Positions 5,811-35,439 of a DNA stretch of 35,804 nt are shown piece after piece. The DNA is from a virus. The stretch is taken from IMG/VR virus record IMGVR_UViG_3300021963_008236, positions 1 to 35,804 of that record; one strand, 5' to 3'. The notes beneath the pieces were generated by a model. That model was not told the origin of the DNA, ran no database searches, and was given only the letters and a program-made list of their open reading frames with translations. Positions within the stretch are counted from its first letter, which is position 1, and each line of letters starts with the position of its first letter. The position numbers and the translations under genes are program-made.

Positions 5811-6173
5811 ATGAAAACTTTTAGAGAGTTTATTACTGAATGTGAGTTAATTGAAGGTAAAGTGGAGTGGGATAATCCAAAAAGACCACTTCAATCTGGA
5901 TTTACTCCAAGAGAAAGGAATAGGAAGTTAAGAAAAAGAGTAGAAAGGGAGACTGGATTAAATAACCCTGATGCAAAATCATTTACATCAACTGGACCCT
6001 CTGAAAAAGGATATGAAAGATATGGTAAATTAACATTAGCAAATAAAGAGCAAAGTGGATTGAAAACACCAAAAGAAAGATTACATAATTTTAAAGATAA
6101 AAATAAAGGAAAAACTAATAGGAAAAAATATAAAACAATTCTTAAAAATCTAAAAGAACCAAAAGACAAATGA
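5811..6173 (+). CDS. Small basic protein with capsid-targeting N-terminus
   Basis: 120 residues, strongly basic. The start MKTFREFITEC is very close to the T4 capsid-targeting sequence MKTYQEFIAEA, with a predicted prohead-protease cut after E10 (ITE). The rest is Lys/Arg-rich and lacks hydrophobic segments, as expected of a small DNA-associated internal head protein. The stop overlaps the start of the lysozyme gene (ATGA), so the two are coupled. Packaging into the head is inferred from the N-terminus, not shown. No other family was recognised. Confidence 0.7.
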   Translation: MKTFREFITECELIEGKVEWDNPKRPLQSGFTPRERNRKLRKRVERETGLNNPDAKSFTSTGPSEKGYERYGKLTLANKEQSGLKTPKERLHNFKDKNKGKTNRKKYKTILKNLKEPKDK

Positions 6174-6634
6174 CTTTAAAGGCAGGAATAGATTTAATTA
6201 AAAAATTTGAAGGATGTCATCTTAAAGCATATCCAGATCCTCTGTCAGGTGGTCTTCCAATCACCATAGGTTGGGGGTCCACTCGCAAGAAGGATGGGTC
6301 TCCATTTAAACTTGGCGACACCATTACTCAAAAGGAAGCAGATGAATTGTTGATTGCTCAATGTGAGAATCAGTTCTTACCATCACTTTCTAAAATCCCA
6401 TATTGGAGTGAAATGAATGACAATCAACGCGGAGCACTTTTATCCTTTGCTTACAATCTCGGTGCTGGTTTTTACGGCGGAAGTAATTTTAATAGTATCA
6501 CTCGTAACCTTCGTGAGAAAAATTGGAAAGCAATCCCAAAAACATTAGAAATGTATCGCAATCCTGGTAGTAATGTAGAGGCCGGATTATTGAGAAGAAG
6601 AAAGGCAGAAGGTAAACTTTGGTCTACACCATAA
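6170..6634 (+). CDS. T4-type lysozyme (GH24 endolysin)
   Basis: 154 residues, the usual length of T4-like phage muramidases. The catalytic region reads LIKKFEGCHLKAYPDP with Glu14 and Asp23, then GLPITIGWGST with Thr32. Downstream NQRGALLSFAYNLG and a C-terminal LLRRRKAEGKLW are family features. It cleaves the glycan backbone of peptidoglycan. There is no signal peptide, so a holin would be needed to release it, or it may be carried in the virion. It overlaps the basic head protein upstream by four bases and is convergent with the minus-strand operon, overlapping the nuclease end by 11 bp. Confidence 0.92.
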   Translation: MTLKAGIDLIKKFEGCHLKAYPDPLSGGLPITIGWGSTRKKDGSPFKLGDTITQKEADELLIAQCENQFLPSLSKIPYWSEMNDNQRGALLSFAYNLGAGFYGGSNFNSITRNLREKNWKAIPKTLEMYRNPGSNVEAGLLRRRKAEGKLWSTP

Positions 6635-6965
6635 AAGGTTTTGCTATTCCTTCATTTATCATTCTCTCATTCACCGTAACTGGGTCTCCAACAAGATAAA
6701 GAGTTCCAAGTATCCTTCCATACTTATCTTCTTTGAAAGTTTCAATTACCCATTCACCTTCTCTGGACAGTTCTTTTTCTAACCACGCTTTTGTCGCAAG
6801 ACCTTCTGCTTTTTCCTTAAGGTCTTTGGTTCTTGTTTCTGCGGCATTAATACCTTTGAGGCGAACTCTTTGAAGAGTTGTGAGATTGAATCCCAAATCT
6901 ATTGAAACATCTAATGTGTCACCATCAACAATTCTTTCTATCTTCTTGATTTTATAGTTATACAT
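6624..6965 (-). CDS. Staphylococcal-nuclease (TNase)-like protein
   Basis: 113 residues. It has the SNase core: IVDGDTLDVSIDLGF (residues 12-26), RVRLKGINAAETR with Arg35 and Glu43, and KYGRILGTLYL with Arg84. These match the catalytic Arg/Glu/Arg set of micrococcal nuclease. There is no signal peptide, so it would act inside the cell, perhaps on host DNA or RNA. It is the last gene of a three-gene minus-strand operon; its ATG overlaps the stop of the small membrane protein upstream. Its end overlaps the lysozyme stop on the other strand. Confidence 0.88.
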   Translation of the reverse strand: MYNYKIKKIERIVDGDTLDVSIDLGFNLTTLQRVRLKGINAAETRTKDLKEKAEGLATKAWLEKELSREGEWVIETFKEDKYGRILGTLYLVGDPVTVNERMINEGIAKPFMV

Positions 6966-7068
6966 TATCTTCCTCGTATGCTAATTTAAGTATATAGTAA
7001 ATGATATAAGCAGCACCGGTAAGTCCAATACCTAATAGTATATTTACACTCCATACTGGGTCAGTCAT
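6958..7068 (-). CDS. 36-residue single-helix membrane protein
   Basis: A short frame, MTDPVWSVNILLGIGLTGAA and on, ending in EEDN-V. Residues ~6-28 form one transmembrane helix, followed by an acidic tail. Its ATG overlaps the stop of the gene before it (ATGA), and its TAA lies inside the start of the nuclease gene, so both junctions are coupled, strong evidence that it is real. No family is recognised; small phage membrane proteins of this kind can be holin-like or regulatory, but nothing here decides. Confidence 0.7.
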   Translation of the reverse strand: MTDPVWSVNILLGIGLTGAAYIIYYILKLAYEEDNV

Positions 7069-7259
7069 AATCGTCCTTCGGTTTTATGTATCCATTCTTT
7101 TAACTCAGCAACATATATTCTGAGTTCTTGTGCTTTATTTAGATGCCATTCATCGCCACTCTTGAAGTACTCGTGAGTGTGATTATCTATTGCCTTAAGA
7201 ATATTGTGTATCGGTGTATTCCAGTCTTCTCTATGAGGTGTATTCCACTCCCGTGGCAT
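7065..7259 (-). CDS. Small conserved-looking protein of unknown function
   Basis: 64 residues from the ATG at 7259 (MPREWNTPHREDWNTPIHNI and on, ending WIHKTEGRL). It is polar and helical, with no membrane segment. The frame is open back to an ATG at 7361, but a late-promoter variant (TCTAAATA) sits 23 bases upstream of 7259, and the repeated WNTP segment begins there, so I prefer the shorter start. It is first in the minus-strand operon, with an ATGA overlap to the membrane protein. The function is not recognised. Confidence 0.65.
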   Translation of the reverse strand: MPREWNTPHREDWNTPIHNILKAIDNHTHEYFKSGDEWHLNKAQELRIYVAELKEWIHKTEGRL

Positions 7260-7282
7260 AAAATGTGAAAAGTAGTTTGAAG

Positions 7283-7290
7283 TATTTAGA
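7283..7290 (-). promoter_or_regulatory. Late promoter variant TCTAAATA (minus strand)
   Basis: TCTAAATA on the minus strand, 23 bases before the ATG at 7259. The same variant stands before the genes at 13260 and 33082 at similar spacing. Confidence 0.5.
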
Positions 7291-7337
7291 TTATTGGGAG
7301 ACTTATTTACCTCTAACCACTTCTCAAACTGGCATAC

Positions 7338-7366
7338 TTGACAGAACCTAAATAATCTCATATAAT
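7338..7366 (+). promoter_or_regulatory. Consensus sigma70 promoter
   Basis: TTGACA (7338-7343), 17-base spacer, TATAAT (7361-7366): a perfect consensus. The predicted start near 7373 coincides with the hairpin at 7374. Confidence 0.88.
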
Positions 7367-7373
7367 GCAAAGG

Positions 7374-7396
7374 AACCCACTCAAAAGGTGGGTTTT
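7374..7396 (+). terminator. Terminator-like hairpin at the transcript start
   Basis: AACCCAC, a short loop, GTGGGTT and TTT. It lies at about +1 to +23 of the promoter above, so it would form the 5' end of the RNA for the gene at 7500. It is either a stability or attenuation hairpin, or a terminator for upstream readthrough. Bases 7397-7499 are a leader with further GC-rich pairing (for example GGTATACC) and no gene. Confidence 0.6.
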
Positions 7397-7499
7397 GTCA
7401 TAATGAGTCTTTGATGTGACACTTAGAGCCGTGGAAGGTGCCTCCCGAGAGGGTTGGTATACCCCCCTTCTATACGGATGCCGAATTCTATTAAACTAA

Positions 7500-8141
7500 A
7501 TGCTTAAAAACTTAACAAATGTAACCGTAGCAATTTTGGGTGCGGTTGCAACATCAGCGGCAACACTGCCAGCACCGAGTATGGCAACATCTTCAGTAGT
7601 ACAACCATTTTCAATTGTTCCTGAAGCGCCTACTCAAGAGACAGAGACCAAAGAGGTTGTTCCCGAGAAACCTAAAGTTAAACGATTAGTTTGTAAAGGA
7701 TGTAATACTAATGAAACGAAGACTGTAGAATTCTTACAGAATCGTGGAATTACTGACAAAAACGCCATAGCAACCATTATGGGCAATATCCGACAAGAAT
7801 CTACCTTCACACCTAATATTTGTGAGGGTGGTGCTAGAACTTCCTATCCTAATTGTGGTGGGGGGTATGGTCTTATCCAATGGACTAATGCTCCTCGTTT
7901 TTATGGACTAGGAAGACACGCTGCCCGTATTGGTGCTAATCCTTCCTCACTGGATGCACAACTTGACTATATGCTGCACGAAGGTGATTGGAAGATGATT
8001 GAGAACCAAATGAAAACACCTGGTGGGTCCATTACTCACTACATGCGTCTTGCAAGTAAGTGGATTCGTTGGGGTCATCATGGGGCAAGAACTGACTTTG
8101 CTTATAACTATGCGAATAAATTAGTTCTTGTTGAAGTCTGA
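7500..8141 (+). CDS. Secreted phage_lysozyme2-type peptidoglycan hydrolase
   Basis: 213 residues. Residues 1-~29 form a signal peptide (VAILGAVATSAATLPAPSMA), followed by a Pro/Glu-rich linker (~40-60) and a catalytic domain from ~70. That domain has AIATIMGNIRQESTF with the likely catalytic Glu100, GGGYGLIQWTNAPRF and a C-terminal helical part, the pattern of the phage tail lysozyme family (phi29 gp13-like). With an export signal it could reach the periplasm without a holin, unlike the GH24 enzyme at 6170. It is driven by a consensus sigma70 promoter with a structured leader, which suggests early or host-like expression, unusual for a lysis enzyme. The substrate is inferred from the fold. 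Confidence 0.8.
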   Translation: MLKNLTNVTVAILGAVATSAATLPAPSMATSSVVQPFSIVPEAPTQETETKEVVPEKPKVKRLVCKGCNTNETKTVEFLQNRGITDKNAIATIMGNIRQESTFTPNICEGGARTSYPNCGGGYGLIQWTNAPRFYGLGRHAARIGANPSSLDAQLDYMLHEGDWKMIENQMKTPGGSITHYMRLASKWIRWGHHGARTDFAYNYANKLVLVEV

Positions 8142-13908: not shown

Positions 13909-13969
13909 AAGATGAGGCAGCAATTTACTGCACTAAACCGTTAATTTAGAAAAGCAAAAAACTCATCTT
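13909..13969 (+). ncRNA. CAGCAATT stem-loop element E1
   Basis: AAGATGAG (13909) pairs with CTCATCTT (ends 13969); CAGCAATT at 13918-13925 follows the left arm and an A-run precedes the right arm. First of five related 51-61 nt elements around the Ro-like gene. Confidence 0.55.
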
Positions 13970-13979
13970 GCTCAAAAAA

Positions 13980-14034
13980 AAGTTGATTCAGCAATTAACC
14001 TAATTGTATCTGAAAAACAACTAAACATCAACTT
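13980..14034 (+). ncRNA. CAGCAATT stem-loop element E2 in the Ro-like gene leader
   Basis: AAGTTGAT pairs with ATCAACTT; CAGCAATT at 13989-13996. Its right arm ends at the base before GGAG, the Shine-Dalgarno of the gene at 14046. Confidence 0.55.
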
Positions 14035-14045
14035 GGAGAAAAATT

Positions 14046-15512
14046 ATGACTTTTATTACTGCTCTGGAATCTCAAATGAATGACACCGTGACTTTGAACG
14101 GTGCAAAATCAAACAAGTCCACTCTGAATAAGTGTCTGGATTTGTTTGGAAAAATTGGTGCTTGTCGTAATGATGTCAAGCAAGCACAACGACTGTTTGC
14201 CTTTGCATATGCCGAGAATCCTGAAACTGCGACTCGCATTCTGTTTTGGGTACGGGATATTCGTGGTGGTCAAGGAGAGCGTGAAGTTTTCCGCAATCTC
14301 TTCAAGTATCTCGTAGAGGAAAATGGTGAAATTGGTGCTAAACTAGTTTCTCTGGTTCCTGCATATGGACGCTGGGATGACCTACTTGTTCTAGAAAACA
14401 CTTCTGCCTGGGATAATGTTCTGGGTGCAATTCAGTTCCAACTGAATTTGGATCGTGTTTCTTTCAAGGCAGGTTCGGCAGTTTCTCTGCTTGCAAAGTG
14501 GTTGCCTTCTATCAATGCTTCCAGCAAAGATAGCAAGCGTCTGGGACGTAAGATTGCAGAACATCTTGGTATGACTGAGCGGGAGTATCGTAAGGTTCTC
14601 AGCAATCTTCGTACTCACATTAACGTTGTTGAAAAGGCAATGTGCTCTAAGGAATGGTCTGTAATTGACTATTCTAAACTGCCTTCTCGTGCTGCATTTA
14701 TGTATCGCAAGGCATTTGCAAAGCAAGATGCAACTCGGTATGCTGATTATCTCAGTGCCGTTGAGAAAGGTGAAGCAAAAATCAATGCCGCAACTCTGTA
14801 TCCTTATGAAATTGTCGAACAGTATCTCTACAAAGGTGCTCGCAACGACAAAACCATTGACCTACAGTGGGAAGCACTTCCTAACTATATGGAAGGTAAG
14901 GAGTTTAACGGTCTGGTAGTTGCTGACGTTTCAGGTTCTATGAATGGTCGTCCTATGTCGGTTTCTATCTCTCTTGCAATGTATATTGCAGAGCGTAATA
15001 CTGCTGAAGTGTGGAAGAATAAGTTCCTGACTTTCTCCGCACAACCTGAACTTCAATCTATCGTTGGTTCTACCATCGGTAAGCGTATTGATAATCTTTC
15101 TCGTGCTGCTTGGCAAATGAATACTGACCTGATGGCAGTATTCAAAACTGTTCTGGATGCAGGTATGAGTAATGACGTTGCTGTTGAGGATATGCCTCAG
15201 AAACTAATTATCGTCTCCGATATGCAGTTTGACCGGTGTTGCAGTTCTAACAAGAGAACTAACTTTGAGCAAATTCAAAAACTCTACCGTAAGGCAGGGT
15301 ATGAGATGCCGAGTTTAGTATTTTGGAACGTCAATTCAATTGGTGGTAATGTTCCTATCACTACTCACGATACTGGCACCTGTCTTGTATCTGGATGTAG
15401 TCCTTCTATCCTGAAGTCCATTCTGACGGATAAGGTTCTTACTCCTGTTGACACTATGAACGATACCGTGTATAGTGAGAGGTATGAAGCAATCGGTGAG
15501 GTGTTTGCCTGA
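14046..15512 (+). CDS. Ro-like RNA-binding protein (DUF2828, HEAT-like ring plus vWA)
   Basis: 488 residues with good Shine-Dalgarno GGAG at 14035. The N-terminal ~285 residues carry the DUF2828 signatures ILFWVRDIRGGQGEREVFRN, YGRWDDLL, SLLAKWLPS and YRKVLSNLR. The C-terminal third is a von Willebrand A domain with an intact MIDAS (VADVSGSM, Asp294-Ser296-Ser298), then LMAVFKTVL and IIVSDMQFD. HEAT-like repeats followed by a vWA domain is the architecture of the Ro60/TROVE ring protein, and phage members are often labelled Ro-like. Ro60 binds misfolded RNAs and Y RNAs. Here the gene lies among tRNAs and is flanked by repeated structured elements, supporting an RNA role. RNA binding itself is inference. 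Confidence 0.85.
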   Translation: MTFITALESQMNDTVTLNGAKSNKSTLNKCLDLFGKIGACRNDVKQAQRLFAFAYAENPETATRILFWVRDIRGGQGEREVFRNLFKYLVEENGEIGAKLVSLVPAYGRWDDLLVLENTSAWDNVLGAIQFQLNLDRVSFKAGSAVSLLAKWLPSINASSKDSKRLGRKIAEHLGMTEREYRKVLSNLRTHINVVEKAMCSKEWSVIDYSKLPSRAAFMYRKAFAKQDATRYADYLSAVEKGEAKINAATLYPYEIVEQYLYKGARNDKTIDLQWEALPNYMEGKEFNGLVVADVSGSMNGRPMSVSISLAMYIAERNTAEVWKNKFLTFSAQPELQSIVGSTIGKRIDNLSRAAWQMNTDLMAVFKTVLDAGMSNDVAVEDMPQKLIIVSDMQFDRCCSSNKRTNFEQIQKLYRKAGYEMPSLVFWNVNSIGGNVPITTHDTGTCLVSGCSPSILKSILTDKVLTPVDTMNDTVYSERYEAIGEVFA

Positions 15513-15529
15513 CCGAATCTTGAGGGGGG

Positions 15530-15558
15530 TTGACAAATCTTCCCCCTTCTGTTAAGAT
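15530..15558 (+). promoter_or_regulatory. Consensus-like sigma70 promoter for the E3/tRNA-like region
   Basis: TTGACA (15530-15535), 17 bases, TAAGAT (15553-15558). The predicted start near 15565 coincides with the first base of element E3 (15566). Confidence 0.82.
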
Positions 15559-15565
15559 AATTTCA

Positions 15566-15616
15566 TAGATGATTCAGCAATTAACTTCTTATTGCTAAAG
15601 GAAAAAACATCATCTA
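15566..15616 (+). ncRNA. CAGCAATT stem-loop element E3
   Basis: TAGATGAT/ATCATCTA stem, CAGCAATT at 15575-15582, A-rich before the right arm. It would be the very 5' end of its transcript and is followed 5 bases later by tRNA-like A. Confidence 0.65.
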
Positions 15617-15621
15617 GTTTC

Positions 15622-15739
15622 ACCAGAATAGTGTAACGGTAGCACACTTAAAAATCAGTTATCTAGTTTTAGATACGGACAGCAATTACTAATAATCCAT
15701 AGGGAGGAGGTGGTCTAGGTTCAATTCCTAGTTCTGGTA
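15622..15739 (+). ncRNA. tRNA-like RNA A with expanded anticodon arm
   Basis: 118 nt with perfect ACCAGAA/TTCTGGT acceptor, D arm GTGTAACGGTAGCAC and T arm CTAGG-TTCAATT-CCTAG. Instead of a 17-nt anticodon arm there is a ~65-nt domain with hairpin TATCTA/TAGATA, then GACAGCAATTACTAATAATCC (octamer at 15680-15687) and GGAGGAGG. No loop with T33 can be made, so it probably does not decode. A terminator follows. Confidence 0.65.
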
Positions 15740-15740
15740 T

Positions 15741-15762
15741 CAGACAGTTCTCTGTCTGTTTT
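15741..15762 (+). terminator. Terminator after tRNA-like A
   Basis: CAGACAG-TTCT-CTGTCTG, then TTTT. It would end a ~200-nt transcript starting at 15565. Confidence 0.8.
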
Positions 15763-15764
15763 AT

Positions 15765-15849
15765 GGGGAAGTTCTCGGGGGGACCTGAGGTTATCTTGTT
15801 TTAGATAAATCTGCATCTTACTTAATAAGTTCGACTCTTATCTTCCCCG
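15765..15849 (+). ncRNA. tRNA-like RNA C, class II shape with odd anticodon loop
   Basis: GGGGAAG/CTTCCCC acceptor, CTC/GAG D stem, T arm ATAAG-TTCGACT-CTTAT and a long variable region. The anticodon hairpin is TTATC/GATAA with eight bases (TTGTTTTA), or six if the closing T-A pair forms; no Leu or Ser anticodon fits. The hairpin resembles those in tRNA-like A and B. Confidence 0.55.
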
Positions 15850-15853
15850 CTTA

Positions 15854-15905
15854 TAGATAGTTCAGCAATTTAAAAATTTTCATACAGAGAAAAAACAACT
15901 ATCTA
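15854..15905 (+). ncRNA. CAGCAATT stem-loop element E4
   Basis: TAGATAGTT/AACTATCTA stem (9 bp), octamer at 15863-15870. It differs from E3 by paired changes in the stem, which supports a conserved helix. Followed 5 bases later by tRNA-like B. Confidence 0.65.
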
Positions 15906-15910
15906 GTTTT

Positions 15911-16029
15911 GCCGAAATAGTTTAATTGGGTAAAACGCTTAAAAACAGATATCTTGTAAAAGATACAGACAGCAATTACTAATAATCCATGTTAAGGAGG
16001 TGTTCTAGGTTCGAATCCTAGTTTCGGCG
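15911..16029 (+). ncRNA. tRNA-like RNA B with expanded anticodon arm
   Basis: 119 nt; perfect GCCGAAA/TTTCGGC acceptor, D arm GTTTAATTGGGTAAAAC, T arm CTAGG-TTCGAAT-CCTAG. The anticodon stem CTTAA/TTAAG encloses ~50 nt with hairpin TATCTT/AAGATA and CAGCAATTACTAATAATCC (octamer 15970-15977). The insert is nearly the same as in A although the tRNA bodies differ. Confidence 0.65.
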
Positions 16030-16030
16030 T

Positions 16031-16086
16031 TAGATGATTCAGCAATTAAAAAAACTTTTCTGTAAAAAAAGCCAAAAAATCATCTA
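16031..16086 (+). ncRNA. CAGCAATT stem-loop element E5
   Basis: TAGATGATT/AATCATCTA stem (9 bp), octamer at 16040-16047, starting two bases after the end of tRNA-like B. Confidence 0.6.
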
Positions 16087-16111
16087 GTTTAAAACTAAAT
16101 AATAAAATCAT

Positions 16112-16189: not shown

Positions 16190-16266
16190 GCTGTTGGTAG
16201 TCTAGTGGTCAGGACACCCCGATAAGGGAGTTGGAAAAGTAGGGGTTCGATTCCCCCACAACGGCA
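16190..16266 (+). tRNA. Degenerate or unusual tRNA, anticodon unclear
   Basis: GCTGTTG/CAACGGC acceptor and GTC/GAC D stem are clear, and a TTCGATT T loop is present. The anticodon region CCCCGATAAGGG gives no loop with T33 (nearest reading GAT), and the T stem has an extra base. Confidence 0.45.
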
Positions 16267-25130: not shown

Positions 25131-26681
25131 ATGAATGTCTTTATAATCAATCACTCCATAGAAAATTGTGGAGTCTATCAGTATGGAAAAAGATTTGGAA
25201 ATATCGCATCCAAATCTAAAAAATATAATTTCATGTATCATGAAATGAATTCTCAGGAAGAACTTAAAAGTTCTTATGAAGATCATAAACCCGAAGCAAT
25301 TATTTACAATTACCTGGGTGGAACAATGCCTTGGGTGACTCCGCAATTAGTTCAGAAGTATAGAGATCTTGGAGTTAAACAATATTTAATTGTTCATAAT
25401 GTAGGATATGCCACATTCTTTGATTATTATTTACACCAAGATCCTTATCATAAAAATGTTGACAGTAATAACTTTGCATTAGCAAGACCTTTATTTGATT
25501 ATCAATCACCTAAAATAGAAAGGAATGATGATACTTTACATGTAGGATCTTTTGGATTTGGATTTAGAATAAAATACTTTGATGAAATTTGTAGAATTGT
25601 AAATGAACAACTTTCTGATAAAAAAGTTCAAATCAATTTACATTTAACATCTTCTCATTTCTGTCCTGATGCAAATGACATTTCTGCTATCAAGCAAGAT
25701 TGTTTGAATTGTATCACTCATGATAATATTAAATTAAATATGACTCATGATTTTTTGACTGATAATGAAATGTTAGATTTTCTTGCTAAAAATGATTTAA
25801 ATATTTTCTTCTATGAAAAATACGAGAATTATTATAATGGCATTTCTTCTACAATAGATTATGCACTTTCTGTTAAAAAACCATTAGCAATTTGTGAAAG
25901 TAACATGTTCGCTCACATTTGGGATGTTCAACCTTCCATTTGTGTAGAAAATAATTCTTTGTCATCAATCATTGAAAATGGATTTTCTCCTCTAGAAGAA
26001 AAGTATAATTTATGGACAAATGAAAAGTTTATAGATATCTTAGATCAAATTATAGAAAAAACAACTGAAGTTATTATGCCCCAATTTAATTCTGATGCAA
26101 AGCAAGATCAATTTGCTGCAAATATTTTAAACTTTAAAAAAGATGGTTATTGCGTAGATATTGGGAGTTGTAACTCAATCACTTCAAATAATACTTATTA
26201 TTTTCAAAATGATAATTGGACATCAATTAGTGTAGAAATTGAAAGTTTATATAATGAAAGTTATTCCAGTAGAAAAAATGGAGTTCATCTAAATGAAAAT
26301 GCTTTGGAGGTTGACTATAAAAAACAATTTGAGGAATATGAATTTCCAAAAAGTATAGATTATCTTTCTCTAGATGTTGATACTCTAAGTTTGGATGTTC
26401 TTAAACTTTTACCTTTGGATGAGTATAGATTTAAAGTAATTACGATTGAGCATGACGGATACCTTTATGGTGATACGTATAGAGAACCTCAGAGGGGTAT
26501 TCTTAATTCTCATGGATATCTTCTAGTTTGTTCAAATGTTTATGTTGAACAACCTGGATATGAAGGAAAGGAATATCCATTTGAAGATTGGTGGATTGAC
26601 CCATCAGAATTTGATAATGATTTGATTGAAAGACTAAAATGTGATAGCACACTTCCATCGGTAATTATTTCTAAATTCTGA
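25131..26681 (+). CDS. Two-domain protein: GT-B-like domain fused to FkbM-like domain
   Basis: 516 residues. The first ~310 resemble a GT-B enzyme (IINHSIENCGVYQYGKRFGN, HNVGYATFF, HVGSFGFGFRIK, and SSTIDYALSVKKPLAICESN as the donor-side helix). The last ~190 look like an FkbM-type methyltransferase: a motif-I-like YCVDIGSCNSITSNNTYYF, then DYLSLDVDTLSLDVL and ITIEHDGYLYGD. Motif I lacks the usual GxxxG glycines, so SAM binding may be altered. A fused pair would add and methylate a sugar in one step. The fusion is inferred from one open frame. Confidence 0.65.
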   Translation: MNVFIINHSIENCGVYQYGKRFGNIASKSKKYNFMYHEMNSQEELKSSYEDHKPEAIIYNYLGGTMPWVTPQLVQKYRDLGVKQYLIVHNVGYATFFDYYLHQDPYHKNVDSNNFALARPLFDYQSPKIERNDDTLHVGSFGFGFRIKYFDEICRIVNEQLSDKKVQINLHLTSSHFCPDANDISAIKQDCLNCITHDNIKLNMTHDFLTDNEMLDFLAKNDLNIFFYEKYENYYNGISSTIDYALSVKKPLAICESNMFAHIWDVQPSICVENNSLSSIIENGFSPLEEKYNLWTNEKFIDILDQIIEKTTEVIMPQFNSDAKQDQFAANILNFKKDGYCVDIGSCNSITSNNTYYFQNDNWTSISVEIESLYNESYSSRKNGVHLNENALEVDYKKQFEEYEFPKSIDYLSLDVDTLSLDVLKLLPLDEYRFKVITIEHDGYLYGDTYREPQRGILNSHGYLLVCSNVYVEQPGYEGKEYPFEDWWIDPSEFDNDLIERLKCDSTLPSVIISKF

Positions 26682-26726
26682 TAATTTACCTAATATTATA
26701 AATCAAAAATAAACAAAAATTAAACT

Positions 26727-27452
26727 ATGAAAACAGAAATTACTCATTTAAATAAAAAAATAATTATAAACTTACATGAAAATGAAAATGAAACAGTATC
26801 ATCAACAATAAGTAGAACTGGTAACTTTTTTGAAATAAATTTTTTAGATTTTGTAAGAAATAATTTTAAAAAACAAAAAACAATTATTGATATTGGGGCA
26901 AACATTGGTAATCATTCTTTGTTTTTTTCGGAATTTTTAGAACATGATGAAATAATTTGTTTTGAACCTTTTGAAAAAAATGTTGAGTTACTTAAACTTA
27001 ATTTAATAGGTAAAAATTGTAAGATTATGGATTACGCACTTAGCGATTCTAATTCTGAAAAAATCTTATATAATAGTGAAGCAATTAATTTTGGTGGGTT
27101 TTCGTTACATTCATATGATGGAAGTAAGGGTGAAAATAAATCATTTATTGTTAAAGACAAAGTAGTTGCTAAAACTTTGGATAGTTTAAATCTAACTAAT
27201 ATTACCATGATTAAAATAGATGTTGAAGGTCATGAAAACTCAGTTTTAAGTGGAGGTATTGAGACAATAAAAAGAAATAATCCTATAATATTCATTGAGA
27301 ATTTAAGTCATGGTTACCCTCACTTATTTCACGATTCTCAATTTGATGAATTTTTTAAAGAAATAAATTATGTTAGAAAACATAAGGACATTATGAGTAG
27401 TTGTATGGATTTGTGGATTCCAAAATCGATGGAATTACCGAATGGAAAATAA
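26727..27452 (+). CDS. FkbM-family methyltransferase
   Basis: 241 residues with canonical FkbM motifs: TIIDIGANIGNHSLFFSEFL (SAM motif I), IICFEPFEKNVELLKLNL and MIKIDVEGHENSVLSGG. These enzymes O-methylate sugars or peptide hydroxyls; in this operon a glycan O-methylation is likely. TATAAATC (7 of 8 late bases) lies 21 bases upstream. The end overlaps the next gene by 11 bases. Confidence 0.9.
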   Translation: MKTEITHLNKKIIINLHENENETVSSTISRTGNFFEINFLDFVRNNFKKQKTIIDIGANIGNHSLFFSEFLEHDEIICFEPFEKNVELLKLNLIGKNCKIMDYALSDSNSEKILYNSEAINFGGFSLHSYDGSKGENKSFIVKDKVVAKTLDSLNLTNITMIKIDVEGHENSVLSGGIETIKRNNPIIFIENLSHGYPHLFHDSQFDEFFKEINYVRKHKDIMSSCMDLWIPKSMELPNGK

Positions 27453-33317: not shown

Positions 33318-33463
33318 ATATACATACACGGGGTTAAGAACCGTGTCTTCTGCAACCGAGACCATCAGAAGTAAAGCGTCTCTCATACCTGCACTGGAGG
33401 GTGGTGTAGGACATAATGTAACCAGTTCGTCCCCCGAACTCATATTTACCCCTTTTCAATTAA

Positions 33464-34111
33464 ATGACTGCTACAATTGCTACACGTTCTAATACTATTA
33501 ACCCCTGGCAGAACTTCTGCGAGTGGGTTACTTCAACTGACAATCGTTTATATGTTGGTTGGTTCGGAGTCCTTATGATTCCTTGCCTACTTGTTGCTAC
33601 TTCAGTTTTTATTATTGCTTTTATTGCAAATCCGCCAGTAGATATTGACGGTATTAGGGAACCAGTAGCAGGTTCTCTAATGTATGGAAACAACATCATC
33701 TCTGGTGCAGTTGTTCCTTCTTCTAATGCTATTGGATTGCATCTTTATAATCTTTGGGATGCTGCTTCTATTGATGAAGCACTTTATAATGGTTGGGCAT
33801 ATCAAGCAGTGGTATTCCACTTTTTGATTGGTGTTTGGTGCTATCTTGGTCGTGAGTGGGAACTCTCATTCAGACTTGGAATGCGTCCTTGGATTGCAGT
33901 TGCTTATAGTGCTCCTGCTATTGCTGCGACTGCTGTATTCTTGATTTATCCCTTTGGTCAAGGAAGTTTTAGTGACGGAATGCCTCTTGGTATTTCTGGA
34001 ACCTTTAATTATATGCTTGTATTTTCTGCAGAACACAATATTCTTATGAATCCGTTTCATATGTTGGGTGTTGCAGGTGTTTTTGGTGGAAGTCTTTTTT
34101 CCGCAATGCAT
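33464..34111 (+). CDS. psbA: psbA exon 1 (photosystem II D1 protein, residues 1-216)
   Basis: [20 protein letters not shown] through [13 protein letters not shown]1 is the reaction-centre core protein of photosystem II and turns over fastest under light; phage copies keep photosynthesis going during infection. The frame is exactly 216 codons to the 5' splice site after CAT. Transmembrane helices A to D lie here; the QB and manganese ligands near the C-terminus are in exon 2. Joined to exon 2 it gives 360 residues, the normal D1 length. Confidence 0.96.
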
Positions 34112-34198
34112 AGGGAACTGTGCCCTTGCTGAGTAATCAGTAAGTGAAAATCGGGTGAACTGCTGGAACCCTAAGTTACTAAAATGTTACTTGACTTA

Positions 34199-34206
34199 TA
34201 TAAATA
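34199..34206 (+). promoter_or_regulatory. Late promoter TATAAATA inside the psbA intron
   Basis: Exact octamer 21 bases before the intron nuclease ATG at 34227; TTGACT at 34191 lies too close to be its -35. Confidence 0.75.
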
Positions 34207-34226
34207 ACTCTGGTAACATAAACAGT

Positions 34227-34904
34227 ATGACTAATCACTACTTATCTTTTATTGAGGAATGTAAATCTAAAACATATCCTCCCAATACTTATCTTGAAGA
34301 ACACCATATTGTCCCAAAACACGATGGTGGTTCAGATAATTCAGAAAATCTAATTTCATTATCTTTTGACGACCACATACTCGCACATAAAATAAGATAC
34401 GATGTATACGGTCAAGTTTATGACTTAGCAGCATATAACTTGATGTGTGGTTTTGATGGTGAAGGTTGGAGACTTCTTAGAGTTGAAGGTGCTTATAAAA
34501 CACACCAAGCACTGAGATTATCCAAGAAAAACTTTTGGAGTTCTGATTATCAAAAAGAAATGTCTGCTCGTTCTGTAAAGTCTGAGTATGCTATGAAAAT
34601 GAGAAGTGTTGGTGGTAAAATTGGTGGTAAGAATAGAAACAAAAATGTTGCTATTACTTCTACTGATAAGTATATTTTCTTTCACAATAAAGTAGAAACA
34701 GTTTGTATAATAAACTGCGAAACTGGTGGAGAAGTTTTAGAAGAACTACAAAAAATAGTTCCTAATCAAAACTTCAAGAGGGTAACACCTTTATTAAAAA
34801 AACAAAGAGAAAATGCATATGGTTGGTCTTGTGAAAAGTTTAGTAATACGGCAATCAGCATCCAAGTCTCAGATACATCTGAGAAAGGTTCAGAGACTAC
34901 CTGA
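34227..34904 (+). CDS. Intron-encoded HNH homing endonuclease
   Basis: 225 residues from the ATG at 34227; the upstream in-frame ATG at 34155 precedes the late promoter and looks unconserved. HNH core YLEEHHIVPKHDGGSDNSEN, then LISLSFDDHILAH. A basic segment (GGKIGGKNRNKN) near 150 and a C-terminal FKRVTPLLKKQRENAYGWSC tail probably bind DNA. It would cut intronless psbA to spread the intron. Related intron and nuclease pairs are known in cyanophage psbA genes (for example S-PM2). The separate late promoter lets it be made late, apart from early psbA mRNA. Confidence 0.88.
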   Translation: MTNHYLSFIEECKSKTYPPNTYLEEHHIVPKHDGGSDNSENLISLSFDDHILAHKIRYDVYGQVYDLAAYNLMCGFDGEGWRLLRVEGAYKTHQALRLSKKNFWSSDYQKEMSARSVKSEYAMKMRSVGGKIGGKNRNKNVAITSTDKYIFFHNKVETVCIINCETGGEVLEELQKIVPNQNFKRVTPLLKKQRENAYGWSCEKFSNTAISIQVSDTSEKGSETT

Positions 34905-35004
34905 GGGGTTTAGTCCCCTTAATAACAGGAATAAGTGCCCGACAACCTAATACAACTTAGGTTGATGATATAGTCCACTCCTTATGAAAATGAGGTATAA
35001 TAGG

Positions 35005-35439
35005 GGTTCCCTCGTAACCTCTTCAATCGTTCGTGAAACTACCGAAACTGAATCCCAAAATTATGGTTATAAGTTCGGTCAAGAAGAAGAAACGTATAAT
35101 ATCGTTGCTGCTCACGGTTATTTTGGTCGTCTTATTTTCCAATATGCTTCCTTTAATAACTCCCGCAGTCTCCACTTCTTCCTCGCTGCCTGGCCCGTTG
35201 TGGGTATCTGGTGTGCTGCTATGGGAATTGCCGTTTCTTCTTTCAATCTCAATGGTCTAAATTTTAATGAATCAATTCTAGATAACCAAGGACGAGCAAT
35301 TCCTACTTGGGCAGATATGCTTAATAGGGCAAATTTGGGTCTAGAAGTGGTCCACGAAAGGAACGCACATAACTTTCCTTTAGACCTTGCTAACGTAGAA
35401 GCAACTCCTGTTGCTCTTACTGCCCCAGTAATCGGTTGA
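35005..35439 (+). CDS. psbA: psbA exon 2 (D1 residues 217-360)
   Basis: [20 protein letters not shown] through [12 protein letters not shown]. Contains the DE loop, QB site ([14 protein letters not shown]), helix E and the lumenal C-terminus with [17 protein letters not shown], which holds manganese-cluster ligands and the CtpA processing region. Reading frame joins exon 1 precisely at GGT. A terminator follows. Confidence 0.95.

Follow-up and report, generated by a model that had tools for sequence, protein, structure and literature searches.

Ro-like genes of phages are accompanied by a CAGCAA-bearing RNA module found in plain and tRNA-like forms

We analysed a 35,804-nt stretch of viral DNA (IMG/VR record IMGVR_UViG_3300021963_008236; the whole stretch is called the window below), in which a gene for a protein with DUF2828 and DUF7788 domains is surrounded by copies of the octamer CAGCAATT, all on the plus strand (Table 1). 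The first-pass annotation of this DNA had listed seven octamers, at 13918, 13989, 15575, 15680, 15863, 15970 and 16040, two of them upstream and five downstream of the gene; on re-reading the sequence, each position was correct and the arrangement was as described. The window contains ten copies in total, compared with 1.83 expected, and none of 100 shuffles attained ten. Five of the seven (13918, 13989, 15575, 15863 and 16040) lie, as had been annotated, in hairpins with a closing stem, about 52-62 nt long, which we call plain elements. Their stems (AAGATGAG/CTCATCTT, AAGTTGAT/ATCAACTT, TAGATGAT/ATCATCTA and TAGATAGTT/AACTATCTA) vary between copies yet remain paired, again in agreement with the annotation. 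The further claim, that all seven are copies of one structured element, holds for these five; at 15680 and 15970 the octamer belongs instead to a permuted helix inside tRNA-like genes. The plain elements score 33-51 bits under a model trained on 40 elements from many phages, with four of the five among its training rows and the element at 16031 left out; the next match in the window reaches 19.7 bits. Folding-energy z-scores of the window RNAs are modest (about -1.0 to -2.5), so that the case for the elements rests on covariation and linkage.

Table 1. Features at the locus of the Ro-like gene, in window coordinates
Feature	Positions	Strand	Remarks
Plain element 1	13909..13970	+	helix AAGATGAG/CTCATCTT; scored by the 40-element model
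Plain element 2, leader of the Ro-like gene	13980..14038	+	scored by the 40-element model; leader helix recurs in aligned cyanophage leaders
Ro-like protein gene, DUF2828 + DUF7788, 488 aa	14046..15512	+	Pfam 165.8 and 127.9 bits
Promoter-like TTGACA-17-TAAGAT	15530..15558	+	ends 7 nt before element 3; consensus match only
Plain element 3	15566..15617	+	46.4 bits
tRNA-like RNA B1	15622..15738	+	capped helix 15660-15675, CAGCAATT at 15680 replacing the anticodon loop; Rfam tRNA 44.0 bits
Terminator-like hairpin after B1	15741..15758	+	consensus match only
tRNA-like RNA B3	15765..15848	+	variant motif CTGCATCT at 15811 (CTGCAT for the CAGCAA part); 7-bp acceptor read from sequence
Plain element 4	15854..15906	+	50.8 bits
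tRNA-like RNA B2	15911..16028	+	capped helix 15950-15965, CAGCAATT at 15970; Rfam tRNA 46.9 bits
Plain element 5	16031..16087	+	49.5 bits; outside the model training set

Elsewhere in the window, an abiF RNA (Rfam RF03085; 8899-8935, plus strand; 53.8 bits, cut-off 37) stands directly before a tRNA-Arg. It has no AbiF-sized gene adjoining and is an orphan within the tRNA cluster of this cyanophage; it may be a decoy against AbiF defence. The psbA gene is apparently split (33464-34132 and 34984-35439, plus strand), with an HNH gene between the parts (34155-34904), which probably represents an intron that carries a homing endonuclease; a PhotoRC-II RNA lies upstream of psbA at 33334-33424.

One plain element reaches into the expression signals of the Ro-like gene. 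The 3' arm of element 2 (14027-14034) adjoins the Shine-Dalgarno sequence GGAG of the gene (14035-14038). An alignment of cyanophage leaders shows the arms again, together with variant octamers; GGAG is weaker in some of the leaders. From this sequence arrangement, autoregulation of the Ro-like gene through element 2 is plausible: with an excess of free protein, the copy over the ribosome-binding site would repress translation. In several relatives, sequences similar to the promoter-like one of the window stand directly before the first downstream element.

Across phages, the element consists of a covarying helix of 7-9 bp, the motif CAGCAA 9-10 nt from the start of the helix, and a G after the 3' arm. 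In a set of 63 short elements, with 48 different 7-nt arms, the distance from the helix start to the motif is 9 or 10 nt for 62 of them. The arms in this set were required to pair, so that its pair counts illustrate the helix and do not prove it; the G, found in 62 of the 63, was not a selection criterion. Free of selection, too, is a control with the order of the letters. Within 2.5 kb of the gene, at 44 loci with less than 70% identity between their Ro-like proteins, we counted 85 cases of CAGCAA together with a 7-bp helix, spread over 30 of the loci. When the letters of the motif are put in other orders the mean count is 6.9, the high values coming from orders that overlap the motif, and on the opposite strand there are 2. 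Covariation of the stems is also seen in relatives, including the tRNA-like RNAs described below. Unrestricted counting of 7-mers around the gene was swamped by coding-strand bias.

The element co-occurs with the gene in phages of Synechococcus, Bacillus, Mycobacterium, Listeria, Enterococcus, Staphylococcus, Campylobacter, Aeromonas, Vibrio and E. coli. Motif and helix lie beside the gene in the phages of Bacillus, Mycobacterium, Listeria, Enterococcus, Campylobacter, Staphylococcus, Aeromonas and E. coli, a wider range than the other cyanophages in which the annotation had proposed to look next to DUF2828 genes. We also searched viral contigs with the pattern AAGACAC-N3-CAGCAA-N(15-45)-GTGTCTT, without reference to the gene. 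It matched 89 contigs, and the same pattern with the permuted motif CAACGA matched none. DUF7788 scored above its cut-off in 67 of the 79 matching contigs examined, and in 65 of the 70 that were at least 20 kb long; one more short contig carries a DUF2828 fragment. The five remaining contigs of at least 20 kb lack both DUF2828 and TROVE and may be fragments. The gene is present in none of 26 contigs with the same helix without the motif, a control set of smaller contigs (8 of the 26 reach 20 kb), and in two of three records with the variant elements CAGCTA and CAGCGA.

A model of the element, R1, was positive in all 12 genomes of gene-bearing phages, four of which (B23, nt-1, DLP_6 and Milchi) were outside its training, and in none of eight tRNA-bearing phages without the gene, six of them cyanophages. 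The element thus tracks the Ro-like gene, and not tRNA arrays or cyanophages as such. The annotated link would have been contradicted by elements in phages without the gene together with their absence next to it elsewhere, and it survived this test. This bears on the possibility that the hairpins serve tRNA arrays as signals for processing or stability, such as cut sites or spacers, and that the link to DUF2828 reflects large, tRNA-rich phages carrying the gene. tRNAs do flank most copies, and in Vibrio phage nt-1 the element belongs to a tRNA array and the gene is 9 kb away. The 12 of 12 against 0 of 8, the mycobacteriophage and Listeria copies close against the gene and the copy in the gene's leader make this explanation very unlikely.

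The gene product itself gave no match to Pfam TROVE (PF05731); DUF7788 and DUF2828 alone were reported at E values up to 0.001. Since a sequence-profile search of the PDB with the protein returned no significant match, we turned to a fold search. The AlphaFold model of the 488-residue protein (pLDDT 89.9, pTM 0.90) has as its top six PDB matches only Ro60/TROVE structures (E 2.5e-7 to 4.8e-6, TM-score 0.50-0.59); matches to lone vWA domains rank lower, with E values above 0.01 only. The predicted model has the HEAT-like ring followed by a C-terminal vWA fold that is a feature of the Ro60/TROVE superfamily. The description of the DUF2828 gene as Ro-like is therefore upheld by the predicted fold, which best matches Ro60. 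Relatives of the protein are encoded in 667 deposited phage records, where most are annotated without function.

One relative has been studied in Listeria phage CKA15, whose CKA15_055 is this DUF2828 protein (gene at 5992-7512 of our locus L042). It was detected in purified virions with 20 peptides and 57.1% coverage (PMC12282133), and the Ro-like protein may be delivered along with the phage genome. Y RNAs have been suggested near the Rsr-like CKA15_055, with no motif or structure named for them (PMC12282133). The most transcribed region of CKA15 is a non-coding stretch, 26,236-26,727 (PMC12282133); mapped to L042 4480-4971, this hot region does not contain the CAGCAA element. The CKA15 RNA-seq was dropped as transcript proof for the elements, as the hot region lies elsewhere.

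The fold of the protein also weighs on a second explanation, that the elements are ligands of another RNA-binding protein of phage or host, and that the Ro-like protein shares its pathway or is regulated by them. The look-alike Class I RNA DdR-21 of Dictyostelium is directly bound by the RRM protein Rnp1A (PMC7919456), and the copy overlapping the ribosome-binding site of the Ro-like gene would allow a purely regulatory link. DUF2828, the one family covered by the linkage analysis, nevertheless accompanies the elements across unrelated phages, the protein has the fold of Ro60, and long forms of the element carry the tRNA module of YrlA. We regard this explanation as very unlikely.

The tRNA-like RNAs downstream of the gene (type B) carry the same module in another setting. 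In B1 and B2 the acceptor, D-arm and T-arm are matched by the Rfam tRNA model with an insert of about 45 nt, and the anticodon region is replaced by about 60 nt; B3 carries this hairpin too, its motif being a variant. A test of tRNA features found no anticodon arm with a 7-nt loop in type B copies. Some copies retain an anticodon stem of 4-6 bp, and many have no consistent anticodon stem or clear 7-nt loop. A further tRNA-like sequence at 16190-16265 on the plus strand, missed by ARAGORN, gave a weak tRNA-Sec match (28.1 bits). In an alignment of 41 tRNA-embedded RNAs, 94% of cells are paired and 260 double changes are seen, compared with 89 in shuffles. Their acceptor stems are paired in 99.3% of cells, with several pair types per position. 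Of 44 motif sites flanked by a D-arm and a T-arm and picked without requiring a hairpin, 41 have one (2.9 expected).

The module thus occurs in more than one topology. The plain form reads 5'-TAGAT-GATT-CAGCAATT...AATC-ATCTA-3', and the tRNA-embedded form 5'-...AAAATC..ATCTA-loop-TAGAT-N4-5-CAGCAATT...; it is the same module with its ends moved. The tRNA module of the window stands in normal tRNA order; that in the long elements of other phages is permuted, with T-arm, closed acceptor and D-arm following each other as in the Rfam YrlA consensus. By a simple finder, the cyanophage clade has 46 unpermuted sites and no permuted ones, and the phages outside it have 14 permuted and 6 unpermuted sites, both kinds occurring in contig L099. 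A restriction of unpermuted forms to cyanophages is ruled out by these six sites, which belong to five other loci. Two loci have a long element at some distance upstream of the Ro-like gene, about 2.05 kb at L002 and 1.58 kb at L067, in which the CAGCAA helix encloses an apparently ordinary tRNA, with D-arm, GAT-type anticodon and T-arm in normal order; there the helix may wrap a whole tRNA. That the tRNA-like copies are functional tRNAs with an intron, spliced out with the help of the Ro-like protein or a phage enzyme, would suit their intact, covarying acceptor, D-arm and T-arm and the anticodon stem of 4-6 bp in some, but is most unlikely, as many copies have no consistent anticodon stem or 7-nt loop to restore, the module is also found outside tRNAs and, elsewhere, in permuted form from which splicing cannot yield a tRNA, and known group I introns are much longer than these inserts.

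We consider it very probable that the elements are small RNAs, non-coding and Y-like, which serve the phage Ro-like (DUF2828) protein as ligands, because of their linkage to its gene (12 of 12 genomes against 0 of 8, and 65 of 70 contigs in the blind search). The match of the protein to Ro60, the 85 motif occurrences against 6.9, the covariation of the type B RNAs, the unselected G and the YrlA-like module support the same conclusion. Counted against it are the five gene-less contigs, the distance of 9 kb in Vibrio phage nt-1, the CKA15 hot spot without the element and the modest z-scores. To the structure, covariation, Ro fold and genetic linkage documented above, the proposal of ligand RNAs adds binding, tethering and autoregulation as putative steps. 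The binding module would be the helix of 7-9 bp, with CAGCAA(U/C)(U) unpaired after its 5' strand and an A-rich strand before its 3' strand, and the protein would grip the helix as Ro60 grips a Y RNA. Three forms would present this module: plain hairpins of 50-60 nt (form A); tRNA-like RNAs with acceptor, D-arm and T-arm intact and the capped helix in place of the anticodon loop (form B), which end at the acceptor stem and so could mature like a tRNA; and, in other phages, permuted YrlA-like RNAs with their ends within the helix (form C). The loop or the tRNA mimic may tether or gate other RNAs or enzymes, for example PNPase or tRNA nucleases. If so, the family represented in the 667 phage records has a concrete candidate for its RNA partner. 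We regard the unpermuted tRNA-embedded Y-like RNA, the element over the ribosome-binding site of the Ro-like gene and the close match in architecture to Dictyostelium Class I RNA, described below, as new; the CAGCAA motif may have been described before.

The annotation had read the locus as a candidate phage Y-RNA system. This stands for Y-like RNAs with a Ro-like protein, on the strength of linkage and fold, and fails for membership in the Rfam YrlA or Y_RNA families. The Rfam models of Y_RNA (RF00019) and YrlA have no match in the region of the elements at E values up to 5. In four whole phage genomes the best score of YrlA (RF02553) is 25 bits, and at the mycobacteriophage element it is 21.4 bits, all below the cut-off of 69 bits. 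Conversely, CAGCAA was upstream of the module in none of 37 matches to a YrlA-like pattern in cellular genomes, some of which may be tandem tRNAs. With animal Ro60 and its Y RNAs the phage system has the protein fold in common; the binding site of Ro60 is a helix near the ends of the Y RNA. Chen reportedly described Y RNAs in mycobacteriophages in 2014. The likeness to YrlA and its TROVE-type Rsr includes a partner of Ro fold and, in the long phage forms, a permuted tRNA module held between the strands of a helix. Unlike YrlA, the phage outer helix has CAGCAA and not the YrlA sequence, the protein is DUF2828 and not TROVE, the cyanophage form is unpermuted and ends at the acceptor, and a tRNA module is missing from the plain forms. 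That a single RNA module exists in three topologies (plain, permuted tRNA and unpermuted tRNA) bears on the origin of tRNA-mimicking Y RNAs.

The architecture of the phage element is nearly identical to that of the Dictyostelium Class I RNAs (RF01414), by homology or convergence. To our knowledge, Class I RNAs have no known Ro-like partner. They are 42-65 nt long, have a stem that joins their AAG...CUGU ends, carry a motif of 11 nt and are reported to be unique to dictyostelids (Kjellin 2021, PMC7919456). Phage and amoebal RNAs are alike in being short, in the covarying stem that joins the ends, in an unpaired motif next to the 5' strand, with ACAGCAA at its end, in the spacing of 10 nt from the start of the stem to CAGCAA, in ends of the AAG...CUGU type and in a variable loop; they differ in that one set belongs to phages and the other to a eukaryotic host, where the reported binder is Rnp1A. 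The RF01414 model, built from amoebal RNAs, finds its best phage match in Vibrio phage nt-1 (33.4 bits, E 1.7e-5; cut-off 41.5 bits). It gives a cluster at the Ro locus of Aeromonas phage LAh_9 (best E 6.5e-5, with another match of E 5.5e-5 some 4 kb upstream), and also has matches at this locus in phages of Listeria, Staphylococcus, E. coli and Mycobacterium, all of these matches being below the cut-off in a search that also yields weak matches in control genomes. We tentatively raise the possibility, which we hold to be somewhat less than even, that the phage DUF2828-associated RNAs and the dictyostelid Class I RNAs form one class recognized by Ro-like proteins. In that case the Y RNAs of social amoebas would be the Class I RNAs, shared with or acquired from phages; Y-like RNAs could exist in an unpermuted, tRNA-embedded form, and YrlA could have arisen from it by circular permutation, or the reverse. 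For the Class I RNAs, thought to be unique to social amoebas, the likeness to the phage elements suggests which kind of protein to seek there.
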